A stretch of 39,246 nt of DNA from an uncultured Ignavibacteria bacterium (GTDB taxonomy: Bacteria > Bacteroidota > Ignavibacteria > Tepidaquicellales > OLB5), in NCBI GenBank assembly GCA_937873695.1, contig CALMYL010000015.1, positions 1 through 39,246 of the forward strand, written 5' to 3'. The notes under the pieces are model-generated. The model did no database searches, had not been told where the DNA came from, and saw only the letters and a list, made by a program, of their open reading frames with translations. Positions 6,960 through 26,849 of this stretch are shown here, in pieces. The position numbers and the translations under genes are program-made. How positions within the stretch are numbered: position 1 is the first letter of the stretch; every line of letters starts with the position of its first letter.

Positions 6960-9353
6960 ATGGGACCATATTTAATTTACGGTGCATTTGCAGGCGCCAT
7001 TTTATCTTCTATACTTTATTTCCTTTCATCAGGCGGCACTGCTAAATACGTTAAACAGGCAAGAATGCTTTTTCATGTTTCTGCCATATTGACAATTTCT
7101 TCAACCGCGTTCCTGCTGTATCTTATTATGACGCACCAGTTCCAGTACACATATGTGTGGAACTATTCATCCCGCGACCTTCCGTGGAATCTGCTGCTGG
7201 CTACATTCTACGCAGGACAGGAAGGCAGTTTCCATTTATGGGCATTCCTGATGGCATTACTTGGAGTATTCTTACTCCCCTATCTTGCCAACAGAGATTC
7301 AGAAAAACTGCCCGGCAACGTACCAAATGATACTTACGAACCGCTTGTGATGGGAACATTTACTCTCCTTTCGGCTTTTTTACTTTTTATCATGATAATT
7401 AAATCACCGTACATGTTTGTATGGCAGTCTTTCCCGGCAGATGTTCAGGTAGGATTTATACCGGAAGACGGCCGCGGACTTAATCCACTGCTGCAAAATT
7501 TCTGGATGACTATTCACCCGCCAATATTATTCACGGGTTTTACATCTCTTTCTATACCATTCAGTTTTGCTATTGCCGCACTCATAAAGAACAGGTATGA
7601 TAAATGGATGAAACTGGCACTCCCCTGGACACTCTTTGGAGGAATGATATTAGGACTCGGCATCATGCTTGGCGGTTATTGGGCTTACGGCGTTCTTGGC
7701 TGGGGCGGTTACTGGGCATGGGATCCGGTTGAAAATTCATCATTTGTACCCTGGCTTCTTATCATTGGAGCAATTCATACAATGGTTGCCGAAGAAAAAG
7801 TAGGTAAATATAAAAGAACAAGTTTGATACTGTGCATACTTGCCTATGCTATGGTGCTGTATTCCACATTCTTGACTCGAAGCGGCGTTTTGGGTGATGC
7901 TTCAGTACATTCGTTTGTAGATCCCGGGCAGGAAGTATATCTGTTCCTTGTGGTTTTCCTCAGTCTATTTGCAGGCGGCGGACTTGCTCTCATTGGTTTC
8001 AGATACAAAAGTTTGAGAACAGAAAAGTCTGAAGGTCAGGTAAACCTTCTTTCAAGAGAGTCAGCATTATTTGTAGGAGCTATTACTATCTGCGCAACCG
8101 CGCTTGTGATTGCTGTTGGCACAAGCTGGCCAATTATCAGCAAAGGGACCGTTGAACCTGATTTTTATAACAGGATGAACCTGCCTCTGGCAATTCTTAT
8201 TGCCGCTATAAACGGCATCAGCATTCTGCTGAGATGGAAGCATTCTGATGAGAAGTCTTTTTTCAAGAGTCTGTATATCCCGCTTGGTTTTACCGGTGCA
8301 ATTACAATAGTGCTGGTAATAATGGGAGTAAGGGACTTTTTGATGGCTCTTCTTGCAGCAGCATCTTTCTTCGCGGTATTTATAAATGGCGAAATAGCTT
8401 ATACGATTTTCAGGAAAAATAAATCAAAGGCAGGCGCGTACATTGCTCACATGGGCGTGATGCTGCTTTTCCTTGGTGTAATTGGTTCAGCAAGATATTC
8501 CGAAGAGGAAAATGTCTCGTTGCCTCTGGGGGAGACCAAAGAAGTACTGGGAGGATATATGCTTACCTATAAAGGAGCCACAGAGATCCCAGGCGATCAT
8601 GAAAAATATCACTTTAATGTTATCGTACAGAAAGATGACAGGGCATTTTTGCTCCAACCGGTAATGTATTACAGTGAATATTCAGAAGGCATTATGAAGA
8701 ATCCGGATATCGCGAACCTGGTAACTAAGGACCTGTATCTCTCGCCAATGGCGCTGGAAGAGCCGGGACAATTCACACCGAACGATATCCACACATTTCA
8801 GAAGGGTGAAGAAAAAGAAATAAACGGTATGAAGATCAAGTTCATAGATTTTGACCGTTCGAAATTCAACCGTGATGATATGGAAGCCGGCACAATGAAT
8901 ATTATGGGTGCCGAGCTTGAAGTTACTATAGACGGGAAAACCGAAAAAGTAATAGCCGAACAGGAAATGTCACAAAACGGTTCTAATCCCATACCTGTAA
9001 AACCACTGGGAAATGATAGCTATACGTTCTACCTGACAAAATTAAGCGTAGCCGGTGAATCAACCGTTGATATTGCCGTAATTGATGATAACAAAATGCA
9101 GCAGGAGCAGGGCGCTCCGGAAACACTTGTGCTTACGGCAAGTGTGAAGCCTTTCATTAACCTGGTTTGGGGCGGCACAATAGTAATGGTTCTTGGATTT
9201 TACTTCTCGCTGATCGCCCGTCACCGCAGGATTAAATCAGAGACCCGTAAATCAGAGCATTTGAGCTCAAACGGCAATGGTCACTCCAACGGCAATGGTA
9301 ACAATAAATCTCACCACAACAAGAAACACAAACACGCCGAAGAAGAAATATAA
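6960..9353 (+). CDS. ccmF: Cytochrome c haem lyase subunit CcmF
   Basis: A 797-residue polytopic inner-membrane protein of the CcmF/CcsA haem-handling superfamily. The haem-binding WWD signature is clear at about residues 237-265 (GYWAYGVLGWGGYWAWDPVENSSFVPW), and the upstream IHPPILFTGF segment carries a conserved His. A large periplasmic domain follows (about 515-720, including DIANLVTKDLYLSP, typical of CcmF), then a last membrane helix (VWGGTIVMVLGFYFSLIA). CcmF, with CcmH in other bacteria, ligates haem to CXXCH motifs, which fits a locus with over 70 such motifs. It is longer than the usual ~650 residues. The last ~35 residues are a low-complexity Asn/Gly/His/Lys tail that may bind metal or be disordered. 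A terminator follows. Confidence 0.92.
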   Translation: MGPYLIYGAFAGAILSSILYFLSSGGTAKYVKQARMLFHVSAILTISSTAFLLYLIMTHQFQYTYVWNYSSRDLPWNLLLATFYAGQEGSFHLWAFLMALLGVFLLPYLANRDSEKLPGNVPNDTYEPLVMGTFTLLSAFLLFIMIIKSPYMFVWQSFPADVQVGFIPEDGRGLNPLLQNFWMTIHPPILFTGFTSLSIPFSFAIAALIKNRYDKWMKLALPWTLFGGMILGLGIMLGGYWAYGVLGWGGYWAWDPVENSSFVPWLLIIGAIHTMVAEEKVGKYKRTSLILCILAYAMVLYSTFLTRSGVLGDASVHSFVDPGQEVYLFLVVFLSLFAGGGLALIGFRYKSLRTEKSEGQVNLLSRESALFVGAITICATALVIAVGTSWPIISKGTVEPDFYNRMNLPLAILIAAINGISILLRWKHSDEKSFFKSLYIPLGFTGAITIVLVIMGVRDFLMALLAAASFFAVFINGEIAYTIFRKNKSKAGAYIAHMGVMLLFLGVIGSARYSEEENVSLPLGETKEVLGGYMLTYKGATEIPGDHEKYHFNVIVQKDDRAFLLQPVMYYSEYSEGIMKNPDIANLVTKDLYLSPMALEEPGQFTPNDIHTFQKGEEKEINGMKIKFIDFDRSKFNRDDMEAGTMNIMGAELEVTIDGKTEKVIAEQEMSQNGSNPIPVKPLGNDSYTFYLTKLSVAGESTVDIAVIDDNKMQQEQGAPETLVLTASVKPFINLVWGGTIVMVLGFYFSLIARHRRIKSETRKSEHLSSNGNGHSNGNGNNKSHHNKKHKHAEEEI

Positions 9354-10734: not shown

Positions 10735-11583
10735 TCAATAATTCACCTGGCCGTTTATGTGCAATTCCTTATCAATTATCTGTCCCTGTCCGTTCATTAC
10801 AGAACTGTGGCAAACATAGCATGTAGTGCTTGTCATGAACGAAAAATGCGGTTCAGTAAATACACCGTTCACCCGCGGAGTTGGATTCCCTGTATTCGGG
10901 TCACCATGGCAAGTGCCGCAAACAACACTTCCCGGGTTTGTCCACACTCCAATAGCATCAGCATTTCCTTCCTTAAATGTACCATGACAATAAACGCTTG
11001 AGCAGGTTGCCGTATTTCTATCCCATGTGGGATTTGGTCTTATTGGTCCGCCAAGAGTATCATGAGCTCGGGTGCCGAACACTATTTCAGCAATACCGTC
11101 AGGATCGGGTCCGATATGGTTCGGGTCATCAAATCCGTTTATATCCCTGTGACAATCTTCGCAGCTAAGCGCGGCACCGTAAATTGAATAGCGATGACTC
11201 ATGTGAACGCCTACGCCCAATGAAGATACAGAAGTATCGCCATTAAGCGCGCTTGGCGGATTAGCATGATCTGAGTTGCCGTGGCATGTTCTGCAGTTCT
11301 CAGGTCCGTTGCTGTTTGAGTGGCAGCCTAAACAGCTTGAGCCTGAAGTACCGCCTGAGTAATCGCCCCCGTGGCAGGTTTTGCATGCACCAAGGTTCCA
11401 TTTGTTTGCAGCAATATAGAGTCCATGGAAATTACTGCTTGAAGGATTGCTCCAACCGGCTGCATGCGATCTTATTTCCGGTGCCAGTGTTACGCTATTA
11501 TCCAGTTCACTGCATCCCTGTGAGATCAGAAGCGAGACAATGAAAGCAATGAATAATCCGTAAAACAATATTATCTTTTTCAT
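10735..11583 (-). CDS. Seven-haem outer-membrane lipoprotein cytochrome c
   Basis: A 282-residue protein with a lipoprotein signal (LLISQGC, Cys24). Seven haem motifs in order: CKTCH, CLGCH, CRTCH, CEDCH, CSSVYCH (CX4CH), CGTCH, CYVCH. Mixed CXXCH and CX4CH spacing is typical of the Geobacter-type CxxxxCH/CxxCH outer-membrane cytochromes (OmcB-like), which face outward in porin-cytochrome complexes. It is the last gene of the operon, 20 bases after the 14-haem cytochrome and near the beta-barrel gene. This supports a porin, periplasmic cytochrome and outer-membrane cytochrome trio. It is smaller than the 12-haem OmcB. Surface exposure is inferred from family and context, not visible in sequence. 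Confidence 0.82.
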   Translation of the reverse strand: MKKIILFYGLFIAFIVSLLISQGCSELDNSVTLAPEIRSHAAGWSNPSSSNFHGLYIAANKWNLGACKTCHGGDYSGGTSGSSCLGCHSNSNGPENCRTCHGNSDHANPPSALNGDTSVSSLGVGVHMSHRYSIYGAALSCEDCHRDINGFDDPNHIGPDPDGIAEIVFGTRAHDTLGGPIRPNPTWDRNTATCSSVYCHGTFKEGNADAIGVWTNPGSVVCGTCHGDPNTGNPTPRVNGVFTEPHFSFMTSTTCYVCHSSVMNGQGQIIDKELHINGQVNY

Positions 11584-11603: not shown

Positions 11604-12893
11604 TTATTTCCTGAATTTATCGTTATCATTACTGTGGCAATAACCGCAGAATCCCCTGCCTGCAACGCCTGTTGGTTTTGCATTTGCATCTGTATGACAG
11701 CTGTAGCAGTTTGCGCCTTCGGTATCGTGCCATATTCCCTTTTCATCTCTCATAAAACCTGTTTCATGCGTTTTGGGGTTAGTTCCTTTAACGCCATCAT
11801 TATCAAAGTGGCATTTAACACATGCCGGGTCTCTGCCTTCAACATCGTGGCATGAAGCACATGATTCAATATCTTTCTTCGCAAGATCCGAATGCAGCCC
11901 GCCGCCTGTATTTACACCAAATGTAGTAAACCCTGCTACCTGGTGAGAGGTTGGCGTAATTCCTGTCACTAACTCGCCTCCGTTCTGGTGGCACTCAGCA
12001 CAGAATGTGCTTTGTTCATGGCAGGTTTTGCACTCAAAACTCTTTTGGTTTGCATCAAGTCCGTGGGTAAATTTGTAATTTAAACTATGCGCAGTAGTTA
12101 GTTTCTGCAGCGCAGTTCTGTCTGTTCTTACCCCGGTTTCTTTTGTATAATAGGGCGCATAGAATCCCTGTTTGGTATTGTTGCCGTTAAACCCAACCGG
12201 TGTGTGGCATGCCTGGCATAAATTATTGCTGTGGCACATCATACAGTTATTTTTACCGCTGGTCATATCAGAAACCTTATGCTCATTTAAGAAGTTGGGG
12301 CTTCTGTGATTTGAAGGCGTTAAATTGGTCAGGTTACTGTGGCAGCTTTCGCAGTTACCAGAGGCTTTTTGAGTATTGTGGCAGCTGTAGCAGCTTTCCA
12401 TGTTGGGAATTCCTGAAAAGACAACTTCTTTTGAATATTTTACGTTATCCATTCCGGCATGGCAATCAACACATTGTTTCTTTTCGGAATCGATGTGCTG
12501 CTTGTGCGAGAAAATGAGTTCGGTCTTATTGGTTTTAAGTTTTTTGTACACACCATCATAGTGGCACAGGTTACATGTTTTCTGGTCGTTTACATCATGG
12601 CAGCCGGTACAGTTAGCTTTCTTCGGGTTCAGGTTATCTTTTGATGAAACACTGGTCAGTGCGCCGGTATGGCAATCTTCACATTTAACTCCTGCATCTT
12701 TTACATGCAGCTTATGATCGAACTTAATGATCTTGCTGTTATCATATCTGACAGCTTCATTTTTTACATCAGAAAAAACTTTAGTAACTGAATTCTTATT
12801 GAGGCTTTTGGAATCTTTAACCAGGTAAGCTGTTGAGCTCAGGAAGATTATCAGGCCGGCAATAAGAAATATATATAGTTTAGTTATTTTCAT
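11604..12893 (-). CDS. Fourteen-haem cytochrome c
   Basis: A 429-residue protein with an N-terminal hydrophobic segment (about residues 5-24) that is either a signal peptide or a membrane anchor. Fourteen CXXCH motifs run the length of the protein, from CEDCH near residue 72 to CGYCH near the C-terminus. Numerous extra His residues (for example FDHKLH, FSHKQH) are suitable as distal haem ligands, as in cytochrome c7/c3-like repeats. It starts 14 bases after the beta-barrel gene, so the two are likely translated as a pair. By analogy with OmaB or MtrA it would sit in the periplasm or be plugged into the barrel to carry electrons through the outer membrane. The specific partner assignment is inference. 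Confidence 0.85.
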   Translation of the reverse strand: MKITKLYIFLIAGLIIFLSSTAYLVKDSKSLNKNSVTKVFSDVKNEAVRYDNSKIIKFDHKLHVKDAGVKCEDCHTGALTSVSSKDNLNPKKANCTGCHDVNDQKTCNLCHYDGVYKKLKTNKTELIFSHKQHIDSEKKQCVDCHAGMDNVKYSKEVVFSGIPNMESCYSCHNTQKASGNCESCHSNLTNLTPSNHRSPNFLNEHKVSDMTSGKNNCMMCHSNNLCQACHTPVGFNGNNTKQGFYAPYYTKETGVRTDRTALQKLTTAHSLNYKFTHGLDANQKSFECKTCHEQSTFCAECHQNGGELVTGITPTSHQVAGFTTFGVNTGGGLHSDLAKKDIESCASCHDVEGRDPACVKCHFDNDGVKGTNPKTHETGFMRDEKGIWHDTEGANCYSCHTDANAKPTGVAGRGFCGYCHSNDNDKFRK

Positions 12894-12907: not shown

Positions 12908-14239
12908 TTATAATTTCTTAAACAGCCAGTAACTGAATCCCGCAAGGATCCTGGCATCTGATTTATAGATCCTGTTAATTAAAAATTGTCCCTGTATATC
13001 AACGCTGAACTGCGGAATTGGCCGGTATGTAATACCAAGCTGTCCGCTGAAAGCATTGACTTTATCTACTTCGTAATCACCCAGTTTGTAATTGGAATAA
13101 TTAACCGAAGCTGAACCGGAGATCATATTCTTGTAAATATCTTTCTGAATATAAGCTGATACACCATCAGACTCTCCAGAGTATCCCATATAACGGGTCA
13201 GATTAATTCCGTAATTTGGATGAGAGAATCCGGCCTGTATCTTTATGGAATTTGACTTCCCTGAAGAAGGACTTGTGACAAGTACATCGTTCTTTTCATA
13301 GAAAACAAAACCCGCTTTTCCGTAAATATTGATCCCGTTTTTCAGCGTGTAATCAAGACCTCCTGATACTTCCTGGTTTTTACTGTAATTGAATACCCAG
13401 AAAATACTGTTGTAATTGTAATGCGGTTCCCTGTAAATGTACTCGGCAAACCCGCGAAGCTCAGGATTGATCTGAACTCTTACATTCGCTTCAGCGCGGT
13501 ACAGCTTTTTCTGGGTTATATCAAAATATGCTTTGGCATAAAAATTATGCTTCATCATATATGTATAATTCAGGTCAAGCCCAACAAGCTGCTCGGCCGG
13601 ACCGTCAAAAGTAATTGTTCTTTCAACCAGGTTGTAAACGCTGTCTGCGCGGAAAGTGGTATAAGATTCAGGTGTTCTTCTTTTGTTTGAGTAACTTAAA
13701 GAAGCCATCAGGTCCTTTACGCCATAGAAGCTGAACATTCCCCCGAAATGATAATTCTTACTTACATCGGGGTACTTTTTGAATTCATATGTATACGGAG
13801 CGAGGGCGCCTCCGTATACACTGAACTGGTACTCTTTATTTTTTCCGGTTTTCACTTTCAGGAATAACCCGTCAAGTGTTCCCTTTCCTGTTCCGGCAAA
13901 AATATTCTGCCTTCCAAGTTTTACGTCAAGCAAACCGAACAGGTTAGACCCTTTTACATACGCATTATAAAACCGGTATGCAAAACCCCTGCCGGATTTA
14001 CCTACAAGATCCTCTTCGGTCTGTGCCAGTGTATTAAAGCTCCACTGCGCGCCTTTAACTTCCAGAAGGTAATTCTGGTAGCCCCTAAGGTGCATTGTCT
14101 TGGCGCTGGATTCGTTGGAAAGGCTGTCTATTCTTTGCCAGCCGTAAAAATAATTATTAAACCTGAAGTTTACTGATTGCGCAAAAATGCCTCCTGTGAA
14201 CATTAAAGCGCCAATCAGCAGCAATAGTTTAGGTTTCAT
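12908..14239 (-). CDS. Outer-membrane beta-barrel (candidate porin of a porin-cytochrome conduit)
   Basis: A 443-residue protein with a signal peptide (ends GGIFAQ), then a series of alternating amphipathic strands with aromatic girdles (for example NYLLEVKGAQWSFNTLAQ, LDVKLGRQNIFAG) and a terminal strand ending GFSYWLFKKL. No haem motif is present. Length and strand density suit a barrel of roughly 16-20 strands. It sits between the tetrahaem protein and the 14-haem/7-haem pair, where a porin is found in Geobacter-type porin-cytochrome (omb-oma-omc) and MtrCAB loci. I do not recognise a close named family from sequence alone. The conduit role rests on context. Confidence 0.78.
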   Translation of the reverse strand: MKPKLLLLIGALMFTGGIFAQSVNFRFNNYFYGWQRIDSLSNESSAKTMHLRGYQNYLLEVKGAQWSFNTLAQTEEDLVGKSGRGFAYRFYNAYVKGSNLFGLLDVKLGRQNIFAGTGKGTLDGLFLKVKTGKNKEYQFSVYGGALAPYTYEFKKYPDVSKNYHFGGMFSFYGVKDLMASLSYSNKRRTPESYTTFRADSVYNLVERTITFDGPAEQLVGLDLNYTYMMKHNFYAKAYFDITQKKLYRAEANVRVQINPELRGFAEYIYREPHYNYNSIFWVFNYSKNQEVSGGLDYTLKNGINIYGKAGFVFYEKNDVLVTSPSSGKSNSIKIQAGFSHPNYGINLTRYMGYSGESDGVSAYIQKDIYKNMISGSASVNYSNYKLGDYEVDKVNAFSGQLGITYRPIPQFSVDIQGQFLINRIYKSDARILAGFSYWLFKKL

Positions 14240-14303: not shown

Positions 14304-14864
14304 TTACTGCGGTTTGTTATGCTGGATCTTCGGCCACATTTCATCATAATTGAAGCTCTTGAAAGTCGGGCTTTCTGAGTTATGACATCCTGTGCAGAAT
14401 GCGGCTTTATCATCATGAATGATAAGACCGTTCTCTTTGGCTTTTTCTTTATCCTTCATTATAGAAAGTTTTTTATATTCAGAACCCGCACCGTGGCAAG
14501 TTTCACACTGAACGCCGTCTTCTTTGCTGAATGTTGATTCAAATTCAGCGGGATCCATATCTTTACCCAGTACATGGCATTTTAAACATGCAGGTGTTTC
14601 AGCTGCAGGTGTAGTAAAGCCTTTATCTTTTGCTATCTTGTCAGCTTCAGGTGTCTGCAGCACTTTAAACGCATTAGAATGTTTGCTGTTCTGCCAGATA
14701 TCGAGCTGTTTGCCCTGGGCATCTGTTTTATGGCATGCGCCAACGCAGGTCTGAACCCCAACATATTTTCCTGTTGCGGCTTTGTGGGCATATTCAGCAA
14801 ATGTAAAACTGTATGCTGCAAGCGCAGCAACAAGCAGTACCGCCAATGTTATTTTCATTTTCAT
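14304..14864 (-). CDS. Tetrahaem cytochrome c554-like periplasmic protein
   Basis: A 186-residue protein with a signal peptide (residues ~1-23, ...SFTFA). Four haem motifs: CVGACH (CX3CH), CLKCH, CETCH, CTGCH. The first, with the following IWQNSKHSNAFKVL, matches the CxxCH...W..S.HA.A pattern of cytochrome c554/c-prime-type multihaem proteins. It is probably a soluble periplasmic electron shuttle between inner-membrane oxidoreductases and the outer-membrane conduit. Unlike nitrifier c554 there is no hydroxylamine oxidoreductase nearby. A GAGG Shine-Dalgarno lies before the ATG. The 111-base gap to the upstream 18-haem gene is the largest in the operon. Confidence 0.85.
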   Translation of the reverse strand: MKMKITLAVLLVAALAAYSFTFAEYAHKAATGKYVGVQTCVGACHKTDAQGKQLDIWQNSKHSNAFKVLQTPEADKIAKDKGFTTPAAETPACLKCHVLGKDMDPAEFESTFSKEDGVQCETCHGAGSEYKKLSIMKDKEKAKENGLIIHDDKAAFCTGCHNSESPTFKSFNYDEMWPKIQHNKPQ

Positions 14865-14975: not shown

Positions 14976-17012
14976 TTATTTCACAAAATTCTTAAGTTTC
15001 TTCTTTTTCTCGTTCAAAACTGTCGTAATCAGGTCATAATTATGTACATAAATACTCTGATGAGAAGTTATCTGATTAAGTATTTTCTTCGCGTCTTCAA
15101 CTTCAGCTTTTTCTTCGTTGCTGAGTTCCATTCCTTTGGCTTTCTGTATCAATTCGCCCAGCTCACCCGAAATCTTTTTGACATCGGCTTTCCATTCGCC
15201 CATCTGGTCATCATAACCGGCTTCATGGCATTTCAGGCAGATCATTTTATCCGGCTTAACTACCTTATCAGCGCTTAGGTGACAATCACCGCAGCCGGCT
15301 CCGGCTGTTTTCATGAAATCAGGCTGGTTTTTACCGAAAACATTGCCATTGTAAACCTGCTCCTGGAACTTATGACACTTTGCGCAGCTTTCATTGGTTT
15401 TGCTGCTTGAGTGATGGCAATTATTACAGCTTTGTTTGGTGATAAAAGTAGTACCGTGCTTCTGCTCGTTTGAATGGCACTTATTGCACGAGATCTTGTT
15501 ATCCACAATATGTTTGTTATGCGAAAAATCCATATCAAACTTCTTCACATTTATTTCCTGTATACCCGAGTGGCAGCTGTAACATTCATTAGGTATGAAT
15601 TCAGACGCTGAAGTGAATTCCGGCAGCGAATTGGCAGCTCCGATTGTTGACAGCGCGTTTTTCATTAAACCGTATGCGCCTATGAGAAGCTTATCTGCAA
15701 ACTGAATATTATGTACACTCTTGCCAATTTCCACTATCTTTATATTGTGCTCAGCCTGTTTCAGCAGTTCTTCTGCCTGTGATTTCTTATCACTTGAAGA
15801 TCTTGAAATTACCGGTGCGACTGTTCTGTAAATTGAATTAATTGTAGCAACTCTCTTTGTCGTTCCGGCTTTCCATTGTTCAACCAGTTTATCATAGCCT
15901 GTGCCATGGCATTTTTCGCAAGCCTTACCGCCTGATTTGGATGTCTTGATATCCATCTTATCCATTTCGTGGAAAACGTGGCAGCCCCTGCAATTTATTC
16001 CGTTAAGGAACATTGCACTGGGAGATTTTTCCACATTAAACCCGTTCTGACCTGTGTACAAACTAACCATCTGCGTATGCGCATTGGTGTGGCAAGATTG
16101 GCAATCCGGCGGAGCTGAAGGATCCATCTGCTGTACCTTATGCTCTATCTGGCTGTGACATGTGAAACACTTCATGCTGTGTTTTTTTATATGGGTTTCG
16201 TGCATCAGTTTTGTATCAGTAAACTTTTCCAGTCTTTCGGTTTCAAAATGACACTGGAAACATCTTTCCTTGCCCACAGTTCCGCTGCCTGTTACAGTAT
16301 TTGAGTGGCAGTCCAGGCATGCCATTTTATTTTCAACTACACCGGTATGGTCATATCTGAAGCTTGCCATTTGCTCTTTGGTTTTATTTTCCCAGCTATG
16401 GCAGGTTTTGCAATCAGCCATTTTATCGTATTTATGTTCAGGGTCATCTGATTTTTTAAAATGGCATGTAAAACAAGTTGCTTCGGTCACTTCAATATGC
16501 GAACCCTGCACTACTTGTGAGTGACAGCTTGTACATTTAAGCGTTTTGCCCCTTCGCTGTTCCTGAAGGTGATTTTTGTGCGAGAATTGCACTCCTTTAA
16601 AATTGTAAGTAGAATCCTTAATGCTCTGCATCACATGACAGCCTGAGCGGTCACATGTGTTATCCGGAATTTCAGCCCAGGGTTTGCGCTTTTTATATGA
16701 CTGAGAAACATAGCTTACTATCTGTACCAAACCGTTCAGCTTACCGCGAACAGTACCGGAAATTCCCGGTTCAAAATGACATTCAACGCAATCAACTTTA
16801 TTATGAGCCGAAGTCCTCCAGCTTTGATAGAATGTTTCCATGTAATGGCAAGTAGGACAGAATGCAGGCCTTGAAGTATATTCTGCTGAGCCTGCCAGAA
16901 GTATAAAAAATAACCCCAGATAAATACCGGTAAACAAAAGGAATCTTCTATAGCCTCGTACCTTTTTGAAAAATCTGACCGGTTTTACATCCTTTGTTTT
17001 TTCTTCGCTCAT
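14976..17012 (-). CDS. Eighteen-haem NapC/NirT-like membrane-anchored cytochrome
   Basis: A 678-residue protein with one N-terminal membrane helix (about 24-44) followed by SRPAFCPTCHYMETFYQSW and NKVDCVECHFEPG, the hallmark of NapC/NirT/NrfH quinol-oxidising cytochromes. Haem motifs: 17 CXXCH plus one CX4CH (CDRSGCH), 18 in all. Two haem-rich blocks are separated by a long haem-free, helical linker (about 385-470), and a lysine-rich helical tail follows the last motif. NapC proteins have 4-5 haems, so this is a large extension of the theme: quinol oxidation joined to a periplasmic haem wire. It lies 58 bases downstream of the b-type cytochrome. A role as a second quinol exit in the same conduit is inferred. 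Confidence 0.85.
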   Translation of the reverse strand: MSEEKTKDVKPVRFFKKVRGYRRFLLFTGIYLGLFFILLAGSAEYTSRPAFCPTCHYMETFYQSWRTSAHNKVDCVECHFEPGISGTVRGKLNGLVQIVSYVSQSYKKRKPWAEIPDNTCDRSGCHVMQSIKDSTYNFKGVQFSHKNHLQEQRRGKTLKCTSCHSQVVQGSHIEVTEATCFTCHFKKSDDPEHKYDKMADCKTCHSWENKTKEQMASFRYDHTGVVENKMACLDCHSNTVTGSGTVGKERCFQCHFETERLEKFTDTKLMHETHIKKHSMKCFTCHSQIEHKVQQMDPSAPPDCQSCHTNAHTQMVSLYTGQNGFNVEKSPSAMFLNGINCRGCHVFHEMDKMDIKTSKSGGKACEKCHGTGYDKLVEQWKAGTTKRVATINSIYRTVAPVISRSSSDKKSQAEELLKQAEHNIKIVEIGKSVHNIQFADKLLIGAYGLMKNALSTIGAANSLPEFTSASEFIPNECYSCHSGIQEINVKKFDMDFSHNKHIVDNKISCNKCHSNEQKHGTTFITKQSCNNCHHSSSKTNESCAKCHKFQEQVYNGNVFGKNQPDFMKTAGAGCGDCHLSADKVVKPDKMICLKCHEAGYDDQMGEWKADVKKISGELGELIQKAKGMELSNEEKAEVEDAKKILNQITSHQSIYVHNYDLITTVLNEKKKKLKNFVK

Positions 17013-17070: not shown

Positions 17071-17898
17071 TCACTTGGTTTCGTTTCCGCTGTTTAATTC
17101 TTTTTCATTTTCCCCGGAAGCCTTTTCTATGAGAGCTTTTTTTTCTTCTTCAAACTTTTTCATAGCTTCTGCTTCTTTTTCGGCTTCTGCTTTTTCTTCC
17201 TGCATTTTTTTATCCAGCTCTTCAAGCTCCAGGGGGTGTTCATGCTCCATCTGCTCCCGGGTCAGGTAACCCTTAGACCACGCTTTATTCATTGGCGCAA
17301 CATCGGGATTAATGAAAATGAAATAAAAATGCCAGACAAGTATCGCCAGTGAAGCGAGTATCGCTTCGTAATAATGGATAGCGGTTGATATATCCATACC
17401 CGTTGTACCTACTATCTTCAGGAAAGTATTTTCAAACCATAATATAAAGCCTGTAGCTCCCATAATGACCGTACCCCATACAACTGCCCAGTACTCCATT
17501 TTTTCAATATAACTGAACCTGCCAAGTTTAGGCTTTACTTCAGTTCTGCCTATAAGATAGAGCATTGAATCCTTAAAATCGAAAAGGTCCTGTTTGCGGG
17601 GCAGAAAATCCCTTACAAGCTGTTTTCCCCTGGGTGTAAATAATATATAATACAGATGATACAATGAAGCTCCTATCATTACTATAGAGGCAACCCTGTG
17701 AACAATACCGCGGGCTTCGAAAGCATTTTCACCTATAATATAAACTATCCATTTCACCCAGAACGCTTCCGGAAATTTGAGCCCGAAACCTGTAAGTATA
17801 AGCGTAATGAAACTTGTGAACAAAAGGAAGTGCTGAACCCTTTCATTCGCGCTCATTCTTAAGTACTTTATATCTTCAAATTTGTCCTTGCCGCTCAT
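17071..17898 (-). CDS. Membrane b-type cytochrome (FdhI / Ni-Fe-hydrogenase b-subunit-like)
   Basis: A 275-residue integral membrane protein with about four helices (roughly 24-42, 65-87, 136-156, 174-198). Helix-associated histidines 23, 67, 81, 175 and 190 are candidate axial ligands for two b haems. The FSYIEKMEYWAVVWGTVIMGATGF segment is typical of the formate dehydrogenase gamma / cytochrome b561-like superfamily that exchanges electrons with quinones. The C-terminal ~65 residues are a Lys/Glu-rich coiled coil. Its ATG overlaps the stop of the 19-haem gene by four bases (ATGA), indicating translational coupling, so the two likely form one complex, much like the Geobacter Cbc inner-membrane b/c pairs. 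That analogy is mine. Confidence 0.85.
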   Translation of the reverse strand: MSGKDKFEDIKYLRMSANERVQHFLLFTSFITLILTGFGLKFPEAFWVKWIVYIIGENAFEARGIVHRVASIVMIGASLYHLYYILFTPRGKQLVRDFLPRKQDLFDFKDSMLYLIGRTEVKPKLGRFSYIEKMEYWAVVWGTVIMGATGFILWFENTFLKIVGTTGMDISTAIHYYEAILASLAILVWHFYFIFINPDVAPMNKAWSKGYLTREQMEHEHPLELEELDKKMQEEKAEAEKEAEAMKKFEEEKKALIEKASGENEKELNSGNETK

Positions 17899-19823
17899 TT
17901 CTTCTTTTTGCCGTTCTTAGCGCCGTTTAACTTTTTCTTATGCTGACGTTTCCTGTAGAAATCCAGTACGTTATGGAAAACCATAAATCCAATTAACCCG
18001 AAGATCATAAACATGTAGAACCTTGTTACCCAGAAAACCATTGGCGAATCTTCTTCGGGGTTTGTTAAGTGGATTTTTTTAGTGAACAATACTTCAGTCG
18101 CGCCCGGATGACACTTTCCGCATGTCTGCGGAAGGTTCTTTTTATTTATCGTCGAAAGTGTATCCGTAGATGGTCTTACATTGTGATTACCATGGCAGCT
18201 TTCGCAGTTAGCGGCTTCTTTTCCGCCGCCCCTGATAGCCAGCCCATGGAAACTTTCGCTGAAAGTTTCCGATACCTGCGTGGGCAGATCATTTCTTTCA
18301 ACAAGCTCAACAGAGCTGTGGCAGTTTGAGCACAATGTCACTATCTCACGTGACTTTTCAAGTTTATTATCAACATTCTTGGTTACAATTCCATGATTGC
18401 CGTGGCAGTTGTTGCAGGTAGGCGCGTCTTTGTTATCTTTACTTACGCCAACCTGGTGAATGCTCCCAACGTAATCCTTCAGCTGGTTTACGTGGCAGCC
18501 TGACTGACCGCACGTATTAGCTATATTCTTCTTGCTTATTTTACTGTCGGGATTATCGGTGCTTTCCATTTCGTGGGCGCCGTGGCACTGGTAACAGGTA
18601 GGCGCATCATAATTTCCGTCCTTCAAAGCCTGATAATGTACGCTGTTCTGGTAACCGGTTATCAGCTCTTCTTCGCCTTTGTAATTCTTATGAGGAATCT
18701 TGCCATCTTTATGACAGCTTAAACATTTATCAGTCAGATTCAGCTTTGAGAAATCGTTTGAAAGCAATGTTGACTGAATATCATGCTCACCGTGGCAATC
18801 TGTACAAGTCGGGGCTTTATCATTACCCTTTGCAAGCTCCTGCCCGTGCTTGGACTTTTTGAAATTCTCTACAGTTTCTTTGTGGCACTTGCCGCATGTT
18901 TCCAGCAGCCTGGCGCGATTGGTGGAAGCCTTTGGATTATTAGGCTCCTGTATCATATGATTGCCGTGGCAATCAACACATCCTGCAGCTTCGAGCAGTC
19001 CGTCCTTTTCTACCGAAGCGTGAATACTTGTTTTGTAATGCTGAACGAATTTAGCCGAGCCTTTTTCTTCACCCGGGAATTTCTTCTCGTCAAGATGGCA
19101 CTCAAGGCATGCCTGTGATTCAACAGAAATTTTTCCGCGGATTATTTTATGCGAGCCATGGCAATCTGTGCAGGTGGGTGCGTTCTGGTTACCCTTGTTC
19201 ATAACCTGCATGTGAATGCTGTTATTAAAATTCTTCTGATGCTCTCCATGACATTTGCCGCAGGTTGCCGCAACTTCATTTTTCGCTATCTTTTTTACTA
19301 CATGTCCCCCGCCATGGCAGCTTTCGCATGTAACATTATTCTTCGCGTGCACGCTTTCAGAGTAATGCTGGATGTTCTGTTTTTTGTGGCAGCTTAAGCA
19401 GCTTTTCGTCTGCTCTTTGGCAAATTCTTTAGCCGGTTTTATGTCATGCTTTGTATGGCAGTCGTAACATTTTACTTTTGCGTGAACATTTGTCTCAATA
19501 TTTTTTGCTTCTTTGTGGCATGTAATACAGTTTACGGGCTGCGGCGATTTTGAATGCGGCAGCTCATCGGGATTGTAATTTTCATGACAATCTTCGCACT
19601 CTGCCATGTTATGTACAGATTTTTTATATCCATCGGGATTCACAAACAGCGAAACTTTCTTGCCGCCCTTATCCATAGTTAAATCTTTATCCTCATGGCA
19701 GCTAAGGCAAACATCAGTACTTGCTGTTTTTATGCGTGAATAGCTATCTGCAAATATCAGAAGTCCGCTTACCAGCAGAACCGGCAACAGGACAAACAAA
19801 ATATTTTTATAATAGCTTTTCAT
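17895..19823 (-). CDS. Nineteen-haem cytochrome c anchored in the inner membrane
   Basis: A 642-residue protein with an N-terminal signal/anchor (about 7-25) and a C-terminal membrane helix (about 597-619) followed by a very basic cytoplasmic tail (RKRQHKKKLNGAKNGKKKK). Between them are 18 CXXCH motifs and one CX4CH (CGQSGCH). Many occur as repeated CxxCHGxH units (TDCHGSH, TDCHGEH, YQCHGAH, NNCHGNH), where the second His can ligate a neighbouring haem. Repeat spacing suggests expansion by internal duplication. It is translationally coupled to the b-type cytochrome, so quinol-derived electrons would pass from haem b to this periplasmic haem array. I know of no fixed gene name for this architecture. 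Confidence 0.87.
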   Translation of the reverse strand: MKSYYKNILFVLLPVLLVSGLLIFADSYSRIKTASTDVCLSCHEDKDLTMDKGGKKVSLFVNPDGYKKSVHNMAECEDCHENYNPDELPHSKSPQPVNCITCHKEAKNIETNVHAKVKCYDCHTKHDIKPAKEFAKEQTKSCLSCHKKQNIQHYSESVHAKNNVTCESCHGGGHVVKKIAKNEVAATCGKCHGEHQKNFNNSIHMQVMNKGNQNAPTCTDCHGSHKIIRGKISVESQACLECHLDEKKFPGEEKGSAKFVQHYKTSIHASVEKDGLLEAAGCVDCHGNHMIQEPNNPKASTNRARLLETCGKCHKETVENFKKSKHGQELAKGNDKAPTCTDCHGEHDIQSTLLSNDFSKLNLTDKCLSCHKDGKIPHKNYKGEEELITGYQNSVHYQALKDGNYDAPTCYQCHGAHEMESTDNPDSKISKKNIANTCGQSGCHVNQLKDYVGSIHQVGVSKDNKDAPTCNNCHGNHGIVTKNVDNKLEKSREIVTLCSNCHSSVELVERNDLPTQVSETFSESFHGLAIRGGGKEAANCESCHGNHNVRPSTDTLSTINKKNLPQTCGKCHPGATEVLFTKKIHLTNPEEDSPMVFWVTRFYMFMIFGLIGFMVFHNVLDFYRKRQHKKKLNGAKNGKKKK

Positions 19824-20260: not shown

Positions 20261-20276
20261 ACAAATTACGTGCCAC
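20261..20276 (-). promoter_or_regulatory. Sigma-54-like promoter of the cytochrome operon
   Basis: Read on the minus strand: TGTGGCACGTAATTTGTA. It has the -24 TGGCACG and a -12 TTG with the GG-N10-G spacing of RpoN promoters (GG at 20274-20273, -12 G at 20262). The C of the canonical -12 GC is T. The predicted start near 20250 is 17 bases before the first gene's ATG. The same layout precedes the T9SS cytochrome gene. Confidence 0.6.
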
Positions 20277-23100: not shown

Positions 23101-24441
23101 TTATTCCAGCCCATATTCCTTGATCTTCTTGTAAAGGGTTTTGCGGTCGATGCCAAGTATCTTTGCTGCCTGCAGCTTGTTCCAGCCGTTCTCTTCAAGC
23201 ACTTTGCGGATGTGCACTTTTTCAAGGTCCTTTAGTTCCATATTGCCGCCCATTGAGATATTTTCTTCATCATTCCCGTTCGATACCAGGAACCTGAAAT
23301 TATGCCTGCCAAGCATATCAGTATCAGATGAGATAAGGGCACGCTCGATAACATTTTCAAGCTCTCTCACGTTCCCCTGCCAGTGGTGGTCAGTTAATGT
23401 TTCAATGGCATCACCTTTTAAGGCAAACTGCCTGTTCATTTTAGCAGAGATCTTCTTCACAAAATGATCTGCTAACAAAGGAATATCATCTTTTCTTTCA
23501 TCAAGCGGCGGCAGTGATATAGATACTGTTGCGATACGGTAGAATAAGTCTTCGCGGAATTTCTTTTCATCTATCATTTCCTTTATGTTTCTGTTTGTCG
23601 CGCTCAACAGCCTTACATCAACTTTCTTTACTTTATCGCTGCCAAGCGGTTTAATTTCCCAGGTTTCAATTACGCGCAGCAACTTTGACTGCAGGTTAAA
23701 AGGCATTTCGGCAATTTCATCAAGCAGCAGAGTGCCGCCATGCGCAAGCTCAAACACTCCTTTTTGCGCGTCAATAGCCCCGGTGTAAGCGCCCTTTGTG
23801 TGACCGAAGAGTTCACTCTCAAGCAGGTTATCGGGTATGGCACTGCAGTTAATGGCAATAAACGGACCCTCGCCGCGCGGTGAGTTATGGTGGATAGCCT
23901 TTGCTACAAGCTCTTTTCCTGTGCCGCTTTGACCTTCGATAAGAACATTCGCGTCGGTCCGGGCGACATTCCTTATCATATCATACACCCGGAGCATCTT
24001 CCTGCTCCTGCCGATTATGCTGCTGAACGAAGCGGAGTTATCCACTTGCGACCGCAGATTAGCCACTTTTTTATTGAGCTCAATATTTTCTACCGCCTTA
24101 TCAAATTTAAGGGTGAACTCTTCAAGGTTAAACGGTTTTCCTATGTAATCAAAAGCTCCCAGCTTCATGGCTTCTACTGCGGAATCAATTGAACCGAAGC
24201 CTGTTATCATGATAAATAATGTGTCTTCCCTCTTAGCCTTCAGCAGATCAAGACCTGAAACATCGGGCATCTGTAAGTCTGAGATCACGATATCAAACTC
24301 ATCGTTTTCAATCTTAGCTAATGCGGCCTTTGAATCGTTTTCAGTTAGCGGGTAATATCCCTTCTTTTCAAGTACTTTCTTAAGCAGGATCGTGGAATTA
24401 ACTTCATCATCAACGATCAGTATTTTAATATCCTGTGTTAT
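23101..24441 (-). CDS. NtrC-type sigma-54-dependent response regulator (apparent ATA start)
   Basis: The reading frame is intact back to 24441, giving 446 residues, the usual size of this family. Receiver 1-~118 (VDDE, phospho-acceptor Asp55, Thr80, Lys102); AAA+ domain with Walker A GQSGTGKE (~170-177), sigma-54 contact loop GAYTGA (217-222, a variant of GAFTGA) and Walker B LLLDE (Asp241-Glu242); Fis-type HTH at the C-terminus (KLQAAKILGIDRKTLYKKI). There is no ATG, GTG or TTG before the receiver. The best start is ATA at 24441, preceded by AGGGAG and giving MTQDIKILIVDDE; the GTG at 24288 would delete half of the receiver. It lies beside a sigma-54-like promoter, so it probably activates the nearby cytochrome genes. 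The soluble PAS kinase at 28197-29414 is a candidate partner. Confidence 0.88.
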   Translation of the reverse strand: MTQDIKILIVDDEVNSTILLKKVLEKKGYYPLTENDSKAALAKIENDEFDIVISDLQMPDVSGLDLLKAKREDTLFIMITGFGSIDSAVEAMKLGAFDYIGKPFNLEEFTLKFDKAVENIELNKKVANLRSQVDNSASFSSIIGRSRKMLRVYDMIRNVARTDANVLIEGQSGTGKELVAKAIHHNSPRGEGPFIAINCSAIPDNLLESELFGHTKGAYTGAIDAQKGVFELAHGGTLLLDEIAEMPFNLQSKLLRVIETWEIKPLGSDKVKKVDVRLLSATNRNIKEMIDEKKFREDLFYRIATVSISLPPLDERKDDIPLLADHFVKKISAKMNRQFALKGDAIETLTDHHWQGNVRELENVIERALISSDTDMLGRHNFRFLVSNGNDEENISMGGNMELKDLEKVHIRKVLEENGWNKLQAAKILGIDRKTLYKKIKEYGLE

Positions 24442-24657: not shown

Positions 24658-24674
24658 TTGGCACGCTATTTGAG
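24658..24674 (+). promoter_or_regulatory. Sigma-54-like promoter of the T9SS cytochrome gene
   Basis: TTGGCACGCTATTTGAG: -24 TGGCACG and -12 TTG with GG-N10-G spacing (GG 24660-24661, -12 G 24672). The last base of the -12 element is A and not C. The predicted start near 24684 leaves a leader of about 69 bases with a strong ribosome site. Confidence 0.6.
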
Positions 24675-24752
24675 TATATAATAGATAGAAAAAAGGAAAA
24701 CTAAATGTCAAAAAATTACAAATATTACACCAATAATTTAGGAGGAAACATA

Positions 24753-26849
24753 ATGAAACGGACAGGGACTTTCTTACTTTTTATGGTTCTATGCGCCGGA
24801 TTGGTAATTGGAGCACCGAGGGTTAAAATAGTTACAGAATACGTAACTCCTCAAATGCTTGCTACGAATTCTGCATTCACACAAGATTCAACTGTTGCCA
24901 GCGGACTCAGATCTGTTGCCAAAGGAACATATGTATATTTCAGAGCATGGAATTTTGGCGATACCGCTGCAATACAAACAGCCAACTGGACAATGCTTGT
25001 AAAACCGGCAGGTTCAACAGCTACACTGCAGGGTCTTACAGGTTTACCGACATGGCAGAAATTTAAAGCTGACTTAACCGGAACATACCAGGTACAGGTA
25101 TCGGTAACTACATCTACAGGCTCAAAAGATACAACAGTTACTGTATACGCTTCTAATTTTGTGGGTGTTGGCGGATTTGATAACATCCCCGCTGCATTCC
25201 CCAACTGTATGAGCTGCCATGGTACAACACCGCAGTTCCAGGATATATTTAACCGCTGGAAAGTTACCGGGCATGCTACTTCATTTAAAACAGGAATATC
25301 TACATTAAATTCAGGCTTTGGAACTTCATGTTTCAAGTGCCATACAATGGGTTATGATCATAATATAGTTGCAAGCAATAATGGTTTTGATGATAAAGCA
25401 AGAGACTTAGGATGGAACTGGAGCTCATACTCACCGCCTAAACCGGGTAACTGGGATACGATTAAGAACAGGTTCCCCGAATTAACAAAATTCGCAGGTG
25501 TAGGATGCGAAAGCTGCCACGGACCCGGAAGCGAACATGCCTTCGGCGGCGGCGATACAACAAAGATGATGAAATCAGTTACTGCAGGTGTTTGCGGCCA
25601 GTGTCATGATTCACCCCCCAATGCACCTATTTTCACACAGTGGAAAAACGCAAAACACTCAAATGTTGTGTGGAGTTCATCATTTGCACAAAACAATAAC
25701 GGAACTAATGATCTTGGTAACTGCATAAGATGCCATGACGGTCAGGGTTACGTAAACTTCACAAAAGGCATCGGAACAAACACAAACGGTAAAACTGTTG
25801 CAAGCCATGAAATGGTATCATGCGCAACCTGCCATGACCCGCACGGCAACAGCAACAATGCATACCTGCGCAACAGACCTGCAGGCAGTGATACACTTGC
25901 CAATGGTTATCATTATACCGGCGTAGGTAACGGCGCAACATGTATGGATTGCCATAAATCAAGAAGAAATACTGCAACATACGTAAATACAAGAGTGACC
26001 AGCTCAACCTGGGGACCGCATCACAATTCACAGGCTGATATATATTTAGGACAGAACCTCGCAACATTCGGCGGTGCGCCATATAGATCAACACAGCACT
26101 TCGCATTTTTGCAGAATGCCTGCGTAACTTGCCATATGGCACCAACAGATACAGCGGCTGCAAACAGAGATAAAGTGGGCGGACACGCATTATTCCTGCA
26201 CAATGAAGCAACAAATTACGACCACATGAAAGCCTGCCAGAGCTGTCACTTTGGAAAAACCAAATTTGATGACTTTATCGCAGATGCAGATTACGATGCA
26301 GACGGAACAATTGAACCATGGAGAGGCGAAGTTGCAGGATGTTTGACAAAACTCGCAATGCAGTTACCGCCCGTTGGCGTTGATTCAGTTGCATGGCAGT
26401 TAATTGCAGCAGATTCAAATAATGTAACTTTGAGGAAAGCATACATTAACTACCTTTCAATAAGAGACGGTTCTGAATTTGGTATGCATAATGCAAAATA
26501 CGTAATTGACGCTTTGGTTGCTTCAAGAAATGCACTAATTGGTATAACTACAATTTCATATGAAGTGCCTGAGAGATTTGAATTAACACAGAACTATCCG
26601 AACCCGTTCAACCCTGTAACGAGATTTAAATTCTCACTGCCAAAGGAAAGCGACGTACAGATAGTAGTATTTGATATCATGGGACGGGTTGTAAGTGTTC
26701 TTGCAAACGGAAAATACAATGCAGGCAAATATGAAGTTGACTGGAACGGAACGAATTCTATGAATAACCAGGTAGCAAGCGGCGTGTACTTCTATAAGAT
26801 AGTTGCCGGCAGCTACACTGATGTTAAGAAAATGATAATGCTTAAATAA
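24753..26849 (+). CDS. Nonahaem cytochrome c with T9SS sorting domain
   Basis: The ATG at 24753 is chosen over the in-frame ATG at 24705 because it follows AGGAGG by seven bases and begins a normal signal peptide (MKRTGTFLLFMVLCAGLVIGA). The mature 698-residue precursor has an Ig/PKD-like N-terminal domain (about 25-135), nine CXXCH motifs (CMSCH, CFKCH, CESCH, CGQCH, CIRCH, CATCH, CMDCH, CVTCH, CQSCH; about 150-515), a haem-free helical part, and a T9SS type A sorting domain (NYPNPFNPVTRFKFSLP ... KKMIMLK). The combination predicts a cytochrome that receives haem in the periplasm and is then carried through the outer membrane to the surface. The gene stands alone between the sigma-54-like promoter and a terminator. 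A terminal reductase or surface wire role is inferred. Confidence 0.9.
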   Translation: MKRTGTFLLFMVLCAGLVIGAPRVKIVTEYVTPQMLATNSAFTQDSTVASGLRSVAKGTYVYFRAWNFGDTAAIQTANWTMLVKPAGSTATLQGLTGLPTWQKFKADLTGTYQVQVSVTTSTGSKDTTVTVYASNFVGVGGFDNIPAAFPNCMSCHGTTPQFQDIFNRWKVTGHATSFKTGISTLNSGFGTSCFKCHTMGYDHNIVASNNGFDDKARDLGWNWSSYSPPKPGNWDTIKNRFPELTKFAGVGCESCHGPGSEHAFGGGDTTKMMKSVTAGVCGQCHDSPPNAPIFTQWKNAKHSNVVWSSSFAQNNNGTNDLGNCIRCHDGQGYVNFTKGIGTNTNGKTVASHEMVSCATCHDPHGNSNNAYLRNRPAGSDTLANGYHYTGVGNGATCMDCHKSRRNTATYVNTRVTSSTWGPHHNSQADIYLGQNLATFGGAPYRSTQHFAFLQNACVTCHMAPTDTAAANRDKVGGHALFLHNEATNYDHMKACQSCHFGKTKFDDFIADADYDADGTIEPWRGEVAGCLTKLAMQLPPVGVDSVAWQLIAADSNNVTLRKAYINYLSIRDGSEFGMHNAKYVIDALVASRNALIGITTISYEVPERFELTQNYPNPFNPVTRFKFSLPKESDVQIVVFDIMGRVVSVLANGKYNAGKYEVDWNGTNSMNNQVASGVYFYKIVAGSYTDVKKMIMLK

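Follow-up and report, generated by a model that had tools for sequence, protein, structure and literature searches.

The stretch of DNA analysed here, referred to below as the window, comprises 39,246 nucleotides of a contig from an uncultured Ignavibacteria bacterium. It holds a minus-strand set of conduit genes spanning 10.7-19.8 kb, an activator gene between two promoter elements and, on the plus strand, a gene for a multihaem c-type cytochrome (P0001) that ends in a C-terminal domain (CTD) of the type IX secretion system (T9SS). The features to which we refer are as follows.

6960-9353, plus: CcmF/NrfE-type haem lyase (cytochrome c maturation)
10735-11583, minus: conduit cytochrome of the GSu CxxxxCH type with 6 CXXCH, a probable lipoprotein (lipobox by eye)
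11604-12893, minus: conduit cytochrome with 14 CXXCH, in an MtrA/ExtA-like position
12908-14239, minus: putative outer-membrane porin of the conduit, 443 aa, inferred from position, sequence and co-occurrence
14304-14864, minus: conduit cytochrome c554-like protein with 3 CXXCH
14976-17012, minus: conduit cytochrome with 17 CXXCH and a NapC/NirT-type N-terminus
17071-17898, minus: conduit cytochrome b (Ni_hydr_CYTB / formate dehydrogenase gamma-like, from family profiles)
17895-19823, minus: conduit cytochrome with 18 CXXCH and a C-terminal membrane helix (by eye)
20261-20275, minus: sigma-54-type element TGGCACGTAATTTGT heading the conduit operon, kept in 6/6 aligned loci
23101-24288, minus: sigma-54-dependent activator (response regulator, AAA and Fis HTH; PF00158, PF02954, partial PF00072)
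24659-24673, plus: sigma-54 (-24/-12)-type element TGGCACGCTATTTGA upstream of P0001, core invariant in 9/9 aligned upstream regions
24753-26849, plus: P0001, c-type cytochrome of nine haems, comprising a signal peptide, an Ig/PKD-like domain, a haem core of the OcwA/NrfA type and a T9SS CTD of type A
25206-26540, plus: nine-haem core of P0001, residues 152-596, with the helix-bundle motif GMHNAKY at its end (profile search of solved structures)
26580-26846, plus: type A T9SS CTD of P0001 (NYPNPFNP ... KKMIMLK), over cut-off for PF18962 and TIGR04183
27212-28027, plus: choice-of-anchor V protein with a T9SS domain (NF041895, TIGR04183), a linked neighbour of P0001
34256-38977, plus: tandem row of five proteins that resemble outer-membrane beta-barrels (by eye; the first matches Pfam OMP_b-brl)

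P0001 is encoded by one uninterrupted reading frame of 698 aa, preceded by a ribosome-binding motif (AGGAGG, 24740-24745); an in-frame upstream ATG at 24705 would provide an alternative start and a product of 714 aa. Its N-terminus, judged by eye, is a Sec signal peptide, and its nine CXXCH motifs lie at residues 152, 193, 252, 281, 324, 357, 397, 457 and 495 (span 152-499); 20,000 residue shuffles of the protein average 0.017 such motifs and never exceed 2. Residues ~54-134 form a confident beta-sandwich inside an otherwise poor full-length AF2 model, which was built with 8 close sequences and whose haem core (pLDDT <50) was left unused. Using VIA-align, which covers only the Ig/PKD and CTD parts of this model and has no haem protein among its rows, the sandwich matches PKD/Ig domains with a Z of about 9. 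At the other end of the protein, the last ~80 residues score 31.6 bits against PF18962 (cut-off 27) and the C-terminus scores 39.1 bits against TIGR04183 (cut-off 23). The architecture proposed in the earlier note, namely an intact reading frame with a signal peptide, nine CXXCH motifs, an Ig-like N-domain and a terminal NYPNPFNP...KKMIMLK domain, is confirmed.

The haem core has recognisable relatives among solved structures. The single P0001 sequence matches entries 6qvm and 6i5b, which we take to be OmhA from Carboxydothermus and OcwA from Thermincola, and a profile of 93 homologues matches the same two (6i5b, E 6e-37; 6qvm, E 2.5e-32). As AF2 gave no usable model for the haem core, this kinship rests on sequence profiles, by which the core is a member of the OcwA/OmhA/NrfA superfamily and not of the MtrC family. 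Full membership of the MtrC/OmcA family was considered and rejected (TIGR03507, 18 bits against a cut-off of 209), and the domain model PF22113 is over its cut-off in P0001. Like OcwA, P0001 combines a homologous core and nine CXXCH motifs with a C-terminal helix bundle, the bundle being read in P0001 from the profile alignment only, and eight histidines outside the motifs are kept in at least 81 of 86 rows, making them candidate distal ligands. OcwA is a characterised surface terminal reductase, in which a c554-like tetrahaem part is joined to a pentahaem part that resembles NrfA and includes a three-helix bundle at the C-terminus (PMC6703420, in part). OcwA and OmhA come from Gram-positive cell surfaces and their solved chains stop soon after the core without a T9SS domain, whereas P0001 carries in addition an Ig/PKD domain and a CTD suited to an outer membrane.

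We then considered how widely the pairing of this core with a sorting tag is found. Core-covering matches to P0001 occur in 38 of 59 relatives (E <=1e-80, partial genes at contig ends included), and the core alone matches in 42 of 296 genomes of a phylum sample at E <= 1e-6. The homologue set began as 95 different ORFs, each with three or more CXXCH, and came down to 93 when ORFs of 187 and 199 aa were dropped; a Cytophagaceae match (L075) was discarded as a 20-CXXCH protein of a different kind. TIGR04183 is found within the last 120 residues (E <= 0.01) in 84 of the 93, so that P0001 is no one-off; with the tag so widely kept and no internal stop, a chance or fusion artefact was rejected. The nine homologues without TIGR04183 are two cut by contig ends (L098, L107) and seven shorter forms (two in L122, one each in L123-L127) of 364-448 aa with 5-6 CXXCH and lipoprotein-type N-termini, the lipobox being flagged by a simple pattern in five and judged by eye in the remaining two. 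Five of the seven (both in L122, and those in L124, L125 and L126; four genomes) sit among multihaem genes, and two genomes (G107 and G300) each encode a CTD form as well as a lipoprotein-type form. One haem module thus pairs with either of two sorting tags. When the 93 rows are placed in a tree by their pentahaem part, the lipoprotein-type forms fall into two groups, with two changes of label of which at least one is forced; the tree has no outgroup and therefore gives no direction to the swap, and a long-branch caveat applies to L123. The part of the earlier note that set T9SS export beside lipoprotein anchoring as an alternative thus acquires a direct parallel in the CTD-less relatives.

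P0001 is also not the sole tagged cytochrome of its genome, an idea that we rejected when control regions (described below) revealed P0002 (L163:9902-11341, minus strand, contig C18). This protein combines 5 CXXCH and 2 CxxxxCH motifs with a PF18962 domain, and in its haem part it is unrelated to P0001. It has matches in 13 genomes, with the whole gene in 12, all of them (12/12) tagged at the end, and the 13th cut by a contig end. In a non-exhaustive survey of this genome, which covered 15 ORFs with at least 3 CXXCH, the tagged ones were P0001 and P0002. Elsewhere in the genome (L139:6756-13472, minus strand, contig C29) lies a cluster with an 8-CXXCH protein and a 9-CXXCH protein whose membrane part looks, by eye, like cytochrome b, together with a barrel that is weakly PorV-like, below cut-off.

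The minus-strand genes resemble the porin-cytochrome conduits of Geobacter (Ext/Omb) and Shewanella (Mtr) in that inner-membrane, periplasmic, porin and multihaem genes adjoin one another, but differ in that T9SS cargo, and not just a lipoprotein, is proposed as the surface component. The putative porin has no Pfam or NCBIfam match. In the clade of P0001 (16 loci), further multihaem genes lie nearby in 12, the window among them, and in the other four (L068, L072, L017, L018) the contig stops within 3.9 kb on that side, short of the 4.9 kb that separates P0001 from the conduit in the window. Gene orders are rearranged among linked loci (L078-L080 compared with the window). In the sister part of the order linkage is seen in only 1 of 10 loci (L084), and in a genome of another family (G050) a CTD cytochrome lies about 0.4 kb from a porin. 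Twenty 20-kb regions surrounding other CTD genes of the same genome, hand-picked and not random, served as a control and held 292 ORFs, 64 of them with a CTD motif; a single ORF of the 292 had at least 3 CXXCH, and this was itself a CTD cytochrome. Across 59 genomes, 37 have both a P0001-type core and the porin, 1 the core only, 8 the porin only and 13 neither (Fisher p 6e-7, uncorrected for kinship). An association with porin-cytochrome loci, which the earlier note had proposed as a check, is therefore found both as linkage within the clade and as co-occurrence between genomes. Porin-cytochrome complexes have been reported in Ignavibacteria (PMC7399161, in part), and a multihaem/porin cluster with Ignavibacterial matches has been termed uncharacterised (PMC8258643, in part).

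In many loci the choice-of-anchor V protein and P0001 are linked. The haem-like motif of the former reads CXCH (GCSCHG) in most of the organism's own genus, as if one residue had been lost, and CXXCH in L073, L078, L081 and L082.

The two promoter elements offer a further connection between P0001 and the conduit. We take TGGCAC-N5-TTG to be the core of a sigma-54 -24/-12-type element, from which consensus the elements deviate by one mismatch at -12. The core has two exact matches in the window, one lying 46 bp ahead of the upstream P0001 ATG and the other 42 bp ahead of a 120-aa gene that leads the conduit operon. Two such sites are not rare by number alone (0.43 expected; 7 of 100 shuffles reach two), but their cores are invariant in aligned upstream regions (9/9 for P0001, 6/6 for the conduit) whose mean column identity is 74-76%. 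Allowing one mismatch, the element at P0001 occurs in 11 of 11 loci of the closest group; it is absent in five loci of the same clade (L078-L082), and it lies within 250 bp upstream of 20 of the best 40 homologues tested. Between the two promoters sits the activator gene, whose product in the window has a receiver domain without its first ~45 positions; the product is 404 aa long in L068 and L069, compared with about 447 aa in several other congeneric loci. On this basis, sigma-54 and the neighbouring activator probably turn on the conduit and P0001 in concert.

Taken together, these observations lead us to propose, with a probability of roughly 0.6, that P0001 is a terminal cytochrome, similar to OcwA, in a chain for extracellular electron transfer, and that T9SS delivers it to the cell surface. 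In this scheme Sec would export the protein and its nine haems would be attached in the periplasm, after which the folded holo-protein would cross the outer membrane by T9SS by means of its CTD; PorU would cut this domain off as it anchors the protein. Electrons would pass from quinol to the cytochrome b and on to the 18- and 17-haem proteins, then cross the porin with the 14-haem protein to reach the small lipoprotein-type cytochrome and P0001, whose OcwA-like core would hand them to a mineral, an electrode or a shuttle. The flow through P0001 and the conduit is probably outward.

It may be that P0001 is exported by T9SS but serves as a surface enzyme of the NrfA or octahaem type, reducing or detoxifying nitrite, hydroxylamine or sulfur compounds, rather than as a mineral or electrode reductase. 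The next structure matches of the 93-homologue profile are indeed octahaem nitrite reductase, NrfA and MccA, and P0001 has in common with NrfA and the octahaem nitrite reductases a C-terminal pentahaem module and an HN..Y helix motif. NrfA-type cores can reduce nitrite or hydroxylamine, and OcwA itself reduces both, nitrite slowly (PMC6703420, in part). Against this, the CXXCK motif of the catalytic haem occurs in 0 of 95 homologue rows, and P0001 differs from these enzymes further in its nine haems and its CTD. The best structure matches are surface electron-transfer cytochromes, P0001 is linked to the conduit and has a promoter element in common with it, and a separate pair elsewhere in the genome reads by eye as NrfHA. 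We consider an enzymatic role of this kind unlikely, though worth keeping in mind.

A terminal cytochrome at the end of this conduit might also operate in the inward direction, with Fe(II), minerals, electrodes or partner cells as the source of electrons; the sequence fixes no direction, and porin-cytochrome conduits of this kind can run either way. OmhA is a reductase, however, and a quinol side of cytochrome b and NapC type is typical of outward chains, although still compatible with reverse flow. OcwA is likewise a reductase (PMC6703420, in part). Inward flow therefore strikes us as distinctly improbable.

Delivery by T9SS, as the preferred reading has it, depends on the nature of the CTD and on the machinery encoded in the genome. 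Modelled alone (12 sequences), the CTD reaches a pLDDT of 87 and its Foldseek matches include PorZ, PorU, RemZ, the RemA CTD and the mirolase CTD. FlgD and streptococcal Ig-like domains score like T9SS CTDs against this fold, and so the assignment rests on the profiles and not on the fold; the profiles (PF18962, TIGR04183) support a true type A cargo domain. As in other type A cargo, a signal peptide (by eye) and a terminal CTD over cut-off occur in P0001 alongside PorU, PorV and SprA in the genome, the difference being a payload that is a multihaem c-type cytochrome. Type A CTD matches in the genome number at least 150 (from scoring 150 of 330 candidates), and the genome also encodes SprA and has a PorU equivalog (922 bits, cut-off 420) adjoining a PorV equivalog (271 bits, cut-off 250). 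These two lie side by side with a T9SS-dependent M6-like inactivated metalloprotease (C30:37440-45950). GldM gave no match to TIGR03517 in this genome, where no control gave a signal, nor to PF12080 in 21 genomes, where the sole control match was E. coli, below cut-off. SprA is thus present without detected GldM in this genome and 20 relatives, and the motor may have diverged or been replaced. Of the export by T9SS that the earlier note envisaged, the cargo domain and the PorU/PorV/SprA side stand, while the GldM component was not detected by two models. That the CTD is merely an envelope or Ig-like domain and P0001 stays periplasmic would fit the Ig-like fold common to FlgD and streptococcal proteins and the two negative GldM searches, but seems very improbable given two profiles over cut-off, the NYPNPFNP and KKM..K motifs, the encoded PorU, PorV and SprA, and CTD-less forms that bear lipoprotein-type N-termini instead.

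We found no report of T9SS export of a multihaem cytochrome in the open-licence PMC literature, subscription papers and preprints lying outside this scope. No multihaem cytochrome appears as T9SS cargo in the portions covered of PMC5492636, PMC3534657, PMC5317091, PMC7399161, PMC8258643, PMC13374861, PMC11495043, PMC10202324 and PMC9251779. A word search of a T9SS effector review gives 0 occurrences of 'cytochrome' (PMC10202324), and a like search of a study predicting secreted multihaem proteins in sludge Bacteroidota gives neither T9SS nor type IX (PMC11495043). T9SS is described as transporting folded proteins (PMC9251779, in part). It may be, and we regard the odds as even, that T9SS serves generally, as a third option next to lipoprotein anchoring and type II secretion, to bring folded, haem-loaded terminal cytochromes to the surface in Ignavibacteria and related Bacteroidota, that an OcwA-type module uses a T9SS tag and a lipid anchor interchangeably, and that cytochromes of other kinds, such as P0002, have gained the tag as well.

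These findings bear on how Bacteroidota with a T9SS put cytochromes outside the cell, as they offer a defined cargo, conduit partner genes and a probable shared regulator. The occurrence of two sorting tags on one haem module would provide a natural comparison, and a CXXCH-rich protein with a TIGR04183 ending would represent a searchable marker of electron-exchanging Bacteroidota in aquifers, sludge and bioanodes. The data suggest that, in a chain that respires minerals or electrodes, T9SS can bring the final protein to the outside of the cell and, if this is true, then the cargo range of this system would extend to covalently haem-loaded electron carriers.
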